A stretch of DNA of 64,000 nucleotides from Aeromicrobium tamlense (GTDB taxonomy: Bacteria > Actinomycetota > Actinomycetes > Propionibacteriales > Nocardioidaceae), in NCBI RefSeq assembly GCF_013408555.1, contig NZ_JACBZN010000001.1, positions 3,162,001-3,226,000 on the forward strand, read 5' to 3'. The translations under genes and the position numbers were made by a program. Positions 9,154 through 31,483 of this stretch are shown here, in pieces; the stretch's first letter is position 1, and each line of letters opens with the position of its first letter. The notes beneath the pieces are model-generated. The model had not been told where the DNA came from. It did no database searches and saw nothing but the letters and a program-made list of their open reading frames with translations.

Positions 9154-9227
9154 CGGGGTGTGGCGCAGCTTGGTAGCGCGCGTCGTTCGGGACGACGAGG
9201 CCGCAGGTTCAAATCCTGTCACCCCGA
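9154..9227 (+). tRNA. tRNA-Pro (anticodon CGG)
   Basis: A complete cloverleaf can be drawn: acceptor CGGGGTG/CACCCCG, D-arm GCGC/GCGC, anticodon stem CGTCG/CGACG with loop TTCGGGA (anticodon CGG), and T-arm with TTCAAAT. The discriminator base is A; the 3' CCA is not encoded (ACCC follows). A strong hairpin follows at once. Confidence 0.93.
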
Positions 9228-14169: not shown

Positions 14170-14766
14170 TCAGCCGACGGCGGTGCGGCCCTCGAACGCG
14201 CGCCCGAGGGTGACCTCGTCGGCGTACTCGAGGTCGCCGCCCACGGGCAGGCCGCTGGCGAGCTTGGTGACCTTCAGGCCGATCGGCACGAGCATCCGCA
14301 TGAGGTACGTGGCCGTAGCCTCGCCCTCGAGGTTCGGGTCGGTGGCGATGATGACCTCGGTGACGGCGCCGTCCTGCAGGCGGCCGAGCAGCTCCTTGAT
14401 GCGCAGCTGGTCGGGACCGATGCCCGCGATGGGGCTGATCGCGCCGCCCAGCACGTGGTAGCGGCCGCGGAACTCACGGGTGCGCTCGATCGCGATGACG
14501 TCCTTGCTCTCCTCGACCACGCACAGCACCGAGTCGTCGCGGCGCGGGTCGGAGCAGATGCGGCACGTGGTGTCGACCGTGACGTTGCCGCAGACCGAGC
14601 AGAACAGGACCTTGGTCTTGGCGTCGACGAGGGTCTGCGCGAAGCGCTTGACGTCCTCGGGGTCGGCGTCGAGGAGGTGGAACGCGATCCGCTGGGCGCT
14701 CTTCGGGCCGATGCCCGGCAGTCGACCGAGCTCGTCGATGAGGTCCTGGATCACGCTTTCGTACAC
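14170..14766 (-). CDS. recR: Recombination mediator RecR
   Basis: A 198-residue full-length RecR. It has a helix-hairpin-helix ('[20 protein letters not shown]', DNA binding), a four-cysteine zinc finger ('[16 protein letters not shown]', about 57-72), a Toprim domain ('[14 protein letters not shown]') and the C-terminal '[19 protein letters not shown]'. It acts with RecF/RecO to load RecA on gapped DNA. The GTG start at 14766 is preceded by TACGCT with a 6-nt gap, so the mRNA is probably leaderless. In many actinobacteria recR sits beside dnaX; here gdx, adh and pab genes separate them. Confidence 0.95.
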
Positions 14767-14772
14767 ACCGAC

Positions 14773-14778
14773 AGCGTA
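14773..14778 (-). promoter_or_regulatory. -10 element of a leaderless recR mRNA
   Basis: TACGCT on the minus strand ends 6 nt before the GTG at 14766. Confidence 0.55.
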
Positions 14779-14838
14779 GTCGGCCGCGGCCAGCCGAACC
14801 GCCTCCGACGAGGCGAGTCCGGCGGCCGCGTGCGCGAC

Positions 14839-15153
14839 TCAGTGCGCGAGCTTGAGACCGACGACGCAGCCGATCAGCCCGCCGATGAGCAGGAACTTGG
14901 TGATCGAGATCGGCTCGGTGCCGGTGTACATGGCCCAGCCGACCGTGGCGGCGGCGCCGATGCCGACCCACACGGCGTAGGCGGTGCCGATCGGCAGGTC
15001 CCGCATCGCCCACGCGAGGCCGGCCATCGAGATGGCGCAGGCGACGACGAAGACGATCGAGGGGACGAGCTTGCTGAAGCCCTCGCTGCGGCCCAGGGCG
15101 GTGGCCCACACGGCCTCGAACAGACCCGAGACGACCAGAACGATCCACGACAT
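14839..15153 (-). CDS. gdx: SMR-family guanidinium exporter (Gdx/SugE type)
   Basis: A 104-residue, four-helix small multidrug resistance protein. Glu13 is the proton/substrate-coupling residue, and 'GRSEGFSKLVPS' after helix 1 is the signature that separates SugE/Gdx guanidinium exporters from EmrE-type drug pumps; 'GTAYAVWVGIGA' is the conserved helix 3 motif. Such proteins are antiparallel dimers that exchange guanidinium for protons. The assignment is strengthened by a guanidine-III riboswitch immediately upstream. AAGGAG lies 6 nt before the ATG at 15153, so the riboswitch can control ribosome access directly. Confidence 0.92.
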   Translation of the reverse strand: MSWIVLVVSGLFEAVWATALGRSEGFSKLVPSIVFVVACAISMAGLAWAMRDLPIGTAYAVWVGIGAAATVGWAMYTGTEPISITKFLLIGGLIGCVVGLKLAH

Positions 15154-15159
15154 GACGCG

Positions 15160-15165
15160 CTCCTT
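15160..15165 (-). promoter_or_regulatory. Ribosome-binding site of gdx
   Basis: AAGGAG on the minus strand, 6 nt before the ATG and 3 nt after the riboswitch, placed so that ligand-dependent folding can hide or expose it. Confidence 0.7.
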
Positions 15166-15168
15166 CGT

Positions 15169-15209
15169 GGCCGTCTTGTCGCGCTCCGGGTACGACTCCA
15201 CTCGTCCGG
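15169..15209 (-). promoter_or_regulatory. Guanidine-III (ykkC-III) riboswitch
   Basis: Read on the minus strand the segment contains CCGGACGAG, then GTACCCGG, then GACAAGACGGC in that order and spacing. These are the conserved blocks of the guanidine-III aptamer (a small pseudoknot best known from Thermobifida fusca). The variable stem between the first two blocks is changed in sequence, as expected for a structured RNA. It lies directly before the SMR exporter gene, the usual target. Guanidine binding should raise gdx expression. Confidence 0.88.
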
Positions 15210-15297
15210 TGGCCGGGGATCCCGGCTCGGATTCCAGCCTTTCACGTCCGGGGTCGGGGGCCAAATCGGATGCAACGTCGGTGACACCTTCGCGGAC

Positions 15298-15303
15298 TAG
15301 CGT
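15298..15303 (+). promoter_or_regulatory. Putative -10 of the alcohol dehydrogenase gene
   Basis: TAGCGT lies 21 nt before the ATG, leaving a short leader that contains the GGAGAGGACG ribosome-binding site. Confidence 0.35.
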
Positions 15304-15324
15304 CCGTGGTGGAGAGGACGAACC

Positions 15325-16356
15325 ATGACCGACATCCCGCGCACGATGCGCGCCGCCGTCAGCGCCGAGGCCGGCGCCCCCCTGACCATCGACGAGGTGC
15401 CGGTGCCGACGCCCGGCCCGGGCCAGGCGCTCGTCCGGCTGATCACCTCGGGCGTCTGCCACACCGACCTGCACGCCGTGAACGGCGACTGGCCGGTGCC
15501 GCCGAAGCGCCCGCTCATCCCCGGCCACGAGGGCTTCGGCGAGGTGGTCGCGCTCGGCGAGGGCGTCACGCAGCTCGCGGTCGGCGACCGGGTCGGCAAC
15601 GCCTGGCTGTGGTCGGCGTGCGGCGCCTGCGAGTACTGCCGCCAGGGCTGGGAGACGCTGTGCGAGCAGCAGCAGAACGGCGGCTACGGCGTCGACGGCT
15701 CGTTCGGCGAGTACATGCTCGTGGACGAGCGCTTCGCCGCACGCGTGCCCGACGGGGTCGACGACGTCGAGGTCGCGCCGATCCTGTGCGCGGGCGTCAC
15801 GGTCTACAAGGGCCTCAAGGTCGCGAACACGCACCCGGGGCAGTGGATGGTCATCAGCGGCATCGGCGGCCTCGGCCACATCGCGGTCCAGTACGCGGTG
15901 GCGATGGGCATGCGCGTGATCGGCGTGGACGTCGACGACGCGAAGCTCGAGCTGGCGCGCAAGCACGGCGCCGAGCACGTCGTGAACGCGGCCAAGGACG
16001 ACCCGGTCGCCTTCGTGCAGGAGACGGTGGGAGGGGCGCACGGCGTCCTGGTCACGGCCGTGCACCGCGAGGCGTTCGGCCAGGCCACCGGCATGACCCG
16101 CCGCGGCGGCACGATCGTGTTCGTCGGGCTGCCGCCGGGTGACTTCCCGGCCAACATCTTCGACATCGTGCTGCGCGGGCTGACCGTGCGCGGCTCGATC
16201 GTGGGCACCCGTCAGGACATGGTCGAGGCGCTCGAGTTCTTCGCGGCGGGCCGGATCCACCCGACCGTGTCGACGAGGTCGCTGGACGAGATCAACGACA
16301 TCTTCGACGAGATGGAGCACGGCCGGATCGACGGCCGCGTGGTCATGCGGTACTGA
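15325..16356 (+). CDS. Zinc-dependent alcohol dehydrogenase (AdhP/AdhA type)
   Basis: A 343-residue medium-chain dehydrogenase. Catalytic zinc ligands are in 'GVCHTDLH' (Cys44), 'GHEGFGEVV' (His67, Glu68) and 'PILCAGVT' (Cys154 region); the structural zinc is held by the four cysteines of 'CGACEYCRQGWETLC' (about 97-111). The NAD-binding loop is 'GIGGLGHIAVQ' with Asp at the end of the next strand ('GVDVDD'), so NAD is preferred. It interconverts short primary alcohols and aldehydes. GGAGAGGACG precedes the ATG. Its 3' end overlaps the convergent pab gene by 14 bp. Confidence 0.92.
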   Translation: MTDIPRTMRAAVSAEAGAPLTIDEVPVPTPGPGQALVRLITSGVCHTDLHAVNGDWPVPPKRPLIPGHEGFGEVVALGEGVTQLAVGDRVGNAWLWSACGACEYCRQGWETLCEQQQNGGYGVDGSFGEYMLVDERFAARVPDGVDDVEVAPILCAGVTVYKGLKVANTHPGQWMVISGIGGLGHIAVQYAVAMGMRVIGVDVDDAKLELARKHGAEHVVNAAKDDPVAFVQETVGGAHGVLVTAVHREAFGQATGMTRRGGTIVFVGLPPGDFPANIFDIVLRGLTVRGSIVGTRQDMVEALEFFAAGRIHPTVSTRSLDEINDIFDEMEHGRIDGRVVMRY

Positions 16357-31385: not shown

Positions 31386-31475
31386 CAGCCCCTCGCGTGG
31401 CGGCACATCACCCAACTCCCCCAGGGCAGGAATGCAGCAAGGGTCAGTGGTCCCTGCCGGGTACGCGAGGGGTCC
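31386..31475 (+). ncRNA. ffs: Signal recognition particle RNA, small bacterial type (4.5S-like)
   Basis: The terminal arms CCCCTCGCGT and ACGCGAGGGG pair to close a long hairpin. The apical region contains GGGCAGGAATGCAGCAAGGG, the conserved domain IV loop bound by Ffh. With Ffh it targets ribosome-nascent chains to the membrane. The ends are set from the pairing and the upstream TATAGT and may be off by a few nucleotides. Confidence 0.92.
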
Positions 31476-31483
31476 TTGCGTTC

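Follow-up and report, generated by a model that had tools for sequence, protein, structure and literature searches.

The 64,000-nt stretch of Aeromicrobium tamlense DNA analyzed here (the window) almost certainly carries a guanidine-III (ykkC-III) riboswitch that switches on the translation of a guanidinium exporter of the Gdx type, and we attach this confidence to the riboswitch and the exporter together. We observed the aptamer itself (through a covariance model), its location directly ahead of the ribosome-binding site of the only SMR gene in the genome, and the covariation of P1 and P2 among its relatives; guanidine binding by guanidine-III RNAs, their predicted role as ON switches, and guanidinium export by Gdx proteins are taken from published work. 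In addition, the GTC trimer that often adjoins the start codon in aptamer-led genes suggests how the OFF state could work, and we give about an even chance to a start-masking step in the guanidine-III switch. Coordinates are collected in Table 1.

Table 1. Features of the riboswitch and its gene, in positions of the window
Feature	Position	Strand	Basis
Guanidine-III aptamer, Rfam extent including 5' hairpin	15164..15231	-	RF01763
41-nt pseudoknot core, same length as the crystallized Thermobifida RNA	15169..15209	-	sequence; 41-nt RNA of 5NWQ, as described in PMC5696562
CCGGACGAG, P1 5' strand and C6/G7 of the ligand site (PMC5696562 numbering)	15201..15209	-	sequence; structure paper, binding-site description
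GACAAGACG, conserved 3' strand; proposed OFF-state start-codon mask	15172..15180	-	sequence; masking role is a proposal
AAGGAG, probable Shine-Dalgarno sequence	15160..15165	-	sequence
CGTC adjoining the start codon, including the GTC trimer overrepresented in aptamer-led genes	15154..15157	-	leader comparison
Proposed OFF hairpin, CGCGACA-A-GACG (15183-15172) with CGUC-A-UGUCGUG (15157-15146)	15146..15184	-	RNA fold
gdx-type SMR exporter gene, 104 aa	14839..15153	-	PF00893; PDB matches; W16

A cmscan search of the whole window against all Rfam (4,227 families) gave a minus-strand match to RF01763 (guanidine-III) at 56.2 bits (E = 6e-9), above the curated gathering score of 36 and aligned over the full length of the model (positions 1–67 of 67). 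This was the sole RF01763 match in the genome (E = 7.4e-11); the search was also positive in 1 of 14 control genomes. The first-pass annotation had placed a guanidine-III riboswitch at 15169–15209 and had named a covariance-model search as its check; the riboswitch is real, and the check was run and passed. That interval is exactly the 41-nt core, but it came with no strand (minus) and omitted the 5' hairpin of the Rfam model. The core blocks CCGGACGAG, CGTACCCGG, and GACAAGACG lie on the minus strand, and the P1 pseudoknot (CCGG/CCGG) is present together with the conserved ACGA, GUACC, and GACAAGACG. As had been described, AAGGAG and then the ATG at 15153 follow the core, so that the guanidine-related SMR gene starts 10 nt past the end of the Rfam match.

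The upper P2 of the window aptamer reads TGGAGT and contains a U15–G38 wobble, which fits the earlier claim that the variable stem is unlike that of the Thermobifida RNA. This difference is unremarkable, since 14 of 222 distinct aptamers have a U15–G38 pair. Otherwise, the window aptamer resembles that of Thermobifida fusca (5NWQ) in its core blocks and their order, in the canonical C16–G37 with G9, in the CCGG/CCGG pseudoknot, and in lying before a ribosome-binding site. The crystal structure places G9 on C16–G37 and includes base triples, as described in PMC5696562, whose position numbers we use throughout. The window aptamer differs in having a 5' hairpin ahead of the core and a ribosome-binding site directly after it, whereas the Thermobifida aptamer is described as standing 16 nt from its own.

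Because 185 of 341 genomes of the same family carry an RF01763 match (183 over the cut-off), the window aptamer is one more member of a known riboswitch class, true and ordinary, and as an example it is not especially new. The exact core pattern, a scan that selects canonical cores only, occurs in at least 119 stretches of public genomes, and 237 unique representatives, mainly from Actinobacteria, are counted in the passage on this class in PMC12186494. We also assembled a class-wide sample selected by SMR protein, comprising 94 loci among the matches listed outside the family, 87 of them with an aptamer. Checking 20 of the 94 against Rfam gave 18 RF01763 matches, 16 over the gathering score, and none at L236 and L283. 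Across the 87 aptamers, pair 16–37 was C–G in 60, A–U in 25, and U–G in 2, and was never broken. P1, assigned by pattern, was CCGG/CCGG in 69, GCGG/CCGC in 13, CTGG/CCAG in 2, and "other" in 3; two of the last (L284 and L287) are really GCGG/CCGC, giving 15 of that form, and L241 is a true mismatch.

Two variants stood out in these comparisons. In one, A16–U37 replaces C16–G37, frequently accompanied by a G-to-C change at base 9 (L324–L393 and, in the class sample, L234, L240, and L246 among others), a change at a base triple beside the ligand site. Base 9 was C in 8 of 25 A–U aptamers vs. 0 of 60 C–G aptamers of the class sample, and in 11 of 43 vs. 1 of 177 in a larger, partly pattern-selected set. 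Nine of ten A–U loci compared with Rfam were RF01763 matches over the gathering score and L304 fell just below it (35.5 bits); the A–U form occurred in 83 of 299 genomes of the family of G616, in a survey that selects A16 and U37 by design. In the other variant, all 15 aptamers with a GCGG/CCGC P1 precede two tandem SMR genes (L269, L273, L274, L275, L277, L280, L284, L287, L292, L293, L294, L295, L296, L301, and L304, among the matches listed in the 87-locus sample), and the only other aptamer locus with a tandem SMR partner, among the matches listed, was L286 (G677). The aptamer subtype with a swapped P1 seems to be associated with two-gene SMR pumps. A plasmid protein search (at least 5,000 records, mostly relatives below 60% identity) and a PF00893 search of 13 family genomes were left out of these results.

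The SMR gene downstream is the sole PF00893 match in the genome, and its protein scored 74 bits against a cut-off of 23.7, placing it in the SMR fold family. Its best PDB matches were 6wk5 (E = 5.6e-20), which we take to be Gdx-Clo, and 8vxu (2.1e-19), both titled "Multidrug resistance protein, SMR family"; EmrE-type chains were far weaker (from 7.8e-07). Counting residues on the translation, we found E13, W16, S42, Y59, and W62, as in Gdx-Clo, so the Trp16 and Glu13 of Gdx-subtype SMR proteins are both present, in line with the Gdx signature claimed before. W16 is conserved in Gdx, with Gly or Ala in Qac proteins, in the family comparison of PMC7695847. Unlike Gdx-subtype SMR exporters, the protein scored 97 bits against the 126-bit cut-off of the NCBIfam SugE equivalog (NF008512), and we therefore call it Gdx-type rather than SugE. 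Among the things tested, this missed cut-off was the only one against the riboswitch and exporter.

The surroundings of the gene were also surveyed. The genome gave no match to the arginase family or to the guanidine-I riboswitch (RF00442), which shares its ligand and overlaps in genes with guanidine-III but has a different fold (class comparison in PMC7266159), and no urea carboxylase over the cut-off, the 21 partial matches being parts of biotin enzymes; this, with no other SMR match, is the genome context of the export role. Downstream of the gdx-type gene lie recR and an aspartate kinase gene, and this order of the three genes, with a 94% identical recR, recurs in Aeromicrobium choanae (L089). 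Among 82 related loci examined, recR adjoined gdx in 6 and adhP adjoined it at high identity in none. An inverted repeat (CGGAC-TAGC-GTCCG, 15293–15306), possibly an operator or shared promoter region, lies between the riboswitch and a divergent adhP-like gene (15325–16356, plus strand). A sigma-70 promoter and terminator scan of 14700–15420 found neither, and because such a scan covers actinobacterial promoters poorly, we make no promoter claim. Elsewhere, the window holds a small SRP RNA (RF00169, 54.9 bits, 31387–31477, plus strand) and three tRNAs (9154–9227, plus; 27967–27883, minus; 44089–44003, minus).

The comparison of leaders revealed a trimer enriched next to the start codon. Of 203 clustered SMR genes led by the aptamer, 111 had GTC adjoining the start, vs. 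19 of 467 other genes. The clusters represent 287 distinct leaders (start-NNN-TGG leaders only), and the control genes were identified by an in-house rule requiring a Shine-Dalgarno motif, which may have misplaced some starts. At the next eleven offsets, GTC appeared in only 0 to 20 of the 203 leaders each; the largest count, 20 of 203 three nucleotides further up, compares with 23 of 467 controls. With spacers of 31–75 nt, GTC still adjoined the start in 14 of 33 leaders. A pattern-scan set (149 loci, of which 136 matched gdx and 135 were used, L043 having no called start) gave GTC before the start in 58 of 108 gdx loci, among the matches listed, vs. 11 of the 300 other genes found there. Within the A. 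tamlense genome itself, the figure was 8 of 167 genes.

Relatives without the aptamer lacked the trimer. GTC was found in 41 of 87 class-sample loci with the aptamer vs. 0 of 6 without it, two of the six having doubtful starts (L270 and L313) and a further locus, L268, having no start (Fisher P = 0.03, although such values overstate the case because the loci are related). In the same family as A. tamlense, none of five aptamer-less gdx genes had GTC before the start, two of them (G205 and G132) sharing similar upstream DNA. Rfam found no RF01763 in these eleven aptamer-less loci; for all of them except L236 and L283, and for L268, this held at E up to 1. We also considered the base at -4: among GACU leaders with GTC, 11 of 34 carried A there, vs. 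4 of 77 GACG leaders (P = 3e-4). However, we judged this covariation with GACG/GACU to be confounded as evidence of masking, since A also stood there in 7 of 19 GACU leaders without GTC, and composition may explain the association.

The aptamer also precedes other genes. Of ten non-SMR genes under it with a clear start, five had GTC (L015, L017, L031, L047, and L084) and five did not (L057, L083, L088, L102, and L135). In three loci (L015:1581–1829, L017:1238–1486, and L031:1239–1487), it lies directly before a small membrane protein, assigned to the NCBIfam CBU_0592 family in L015 (42 bits, cut-off 25) and alike by translation in the other two; this is possibly a guanidine-related gene. In L057:7084–7998, L102:2940–4079, and L135:5487–6641, it precedes arginase-family genes (PF00491 for the first two, alike by translation for the third), which are possibly guanidine hydrolases.

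What the trimer might do is suggested by its sequence. GUC-A-UG can pair with the near-invariant ACAAGAC, and we therefore propose this strand as a start-codon mask until guanidine refolds it. Without guanidine, GACAAGACG would pair with the start region (GUC-A-UG, extended in the window to CGUC-A-UGUCGUG), masking the start codon and leaving the Shine-Dalgarno sequence in a loop. Put in terms of the strands, GACAAGAC would be paired with GUCAUG in the ligand-free state, and GACAAGACG with CGUCAUGUCG only when the ligand is absent. GACAAGACG is needed in the pseudoknot to form the ligand site; guanidine would draw it there and free the start region. We read GUC-A-UG as the complement of CA-A-GAC in the aptamer 3' strand, and such a pairing would account for the trimer having to adjoin the start codon. 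A translational ON switch is predicted in the relevant passages of PMC5696562 and PMC12186494. At the level of titles, abstracts, and passages, we did not find a start-codon pairing described for guanidine-III, and an earlier description may exist.

In the window, the OFF helix would have 11 pairs and one mismatch; the hairpin folds at −17.4 kcal/mol (z = −2.10, with 8 of 200 shuffles as good), and the duplex of aptamer strand and start region, at −16.3 kcal/mol, is matched by 1 in 467 control start regions (percentile 0.002). For 135 loci, the duplex of each aptamer strand with its own start region had a median percentile of 0.13 against the 467 controls, but 17.8% of loci exceeded 0.5, which counts against masking. 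In a survey of 84 leaders whose spacers did not exceed 30 nt, the leaders together had 2.95 expected pairs vs. 0.90 for controls (P = 1e-5); in the frame of this survey, the window did no better than its controls (0.87 vs. 1.79, rank 0.525). Folds of the whole window leader contained the masking helix in three of six frames and lacked it in the other three, with one further predicted fold also containing it, and the modeled leader thus appears close to balance between folds. In many loci, those with Ala at codon 2, only 3 + 2 pairs around a mismatch make up the core helix, and Ser at codon 2 was no commoner with GTC (19 of 59 vs. 16 of 50).

A substantial, if tentative, alternative is that the riboswitch is real but either conceals the Shine-Dalgarno sequence in its OFF state through other, locus-specific pairings or acts mainly on mRNA stability, with GTC serving otherwise. 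This would suit the frame-dependent folds of the window, the discussion in PMC5696562, which proposes only unspecified competing OFF structures, and the statement in PMC12186494, attributed there to Richards and Belasco 2021, that guanidine-III additionally protects mRNA against RNase E. Yet it leaves unexplained why GTC is enriched only in contact with the start codon, with short and long spacers alike, and why it is absent from 11 aptamer-less relatives. Another reading, which we find unlikely, has GTC and the preceding C pair with the GACG of the 5' strand CCGGACGAG instead of the 3' strand. CGTC is complementary to that GACG too, and the T at -5 in 48 of 111 GTC leaders would pair with A8; however, expected pairs of the 5' strand with the start region were at the control level (0.30 vs. 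0.38 over 84 leaders), and pairing in this register would not account for contact with the start codon.

It is less probable still that GTC is a functionless inheritance from one ancestral leader. The loci are related and, among the matches listed, mostly actinobacterial, but neighboring positions are freely variable (from -6 to -4, even the commonest base is present in no more than about half of the 111 leaders with GTC), the trimer is kept across spacers of 12–75 nt, and it recurs before the five non-SMR genes named above as well as in Myxococcus (L093) and a Planctomycetes MAG (L035). Finally, a chance or decayed match with no working riboswitch is barely credible, as the imperfect P2, with two non-standard marks in the covariance-model alignment, must be set against an E value of 6e-9 over all Rfam families, intact core blocks, and many relatives with the same placement before gdx.

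For A. tamlense, these results point to a guanidinium-export role for a gene that annotation could label a multidrug pump. For guanidine-III riboswitches, the GTC-before-start pattern supplies a concrete OFF pairing, testable with few mutants. We put somewhat short of an even chance on start masking being a built-in platform of the whole class, in which ACAAGAC, as part of the guanidine-binding fold, would double as a start-codon mask via GUC-A-UG and the conserved element would take in the three bases adjoining the start codon, irrespective of gene and spacer length. If this is true, ligand binding and translation would compete for the same nucleotides.
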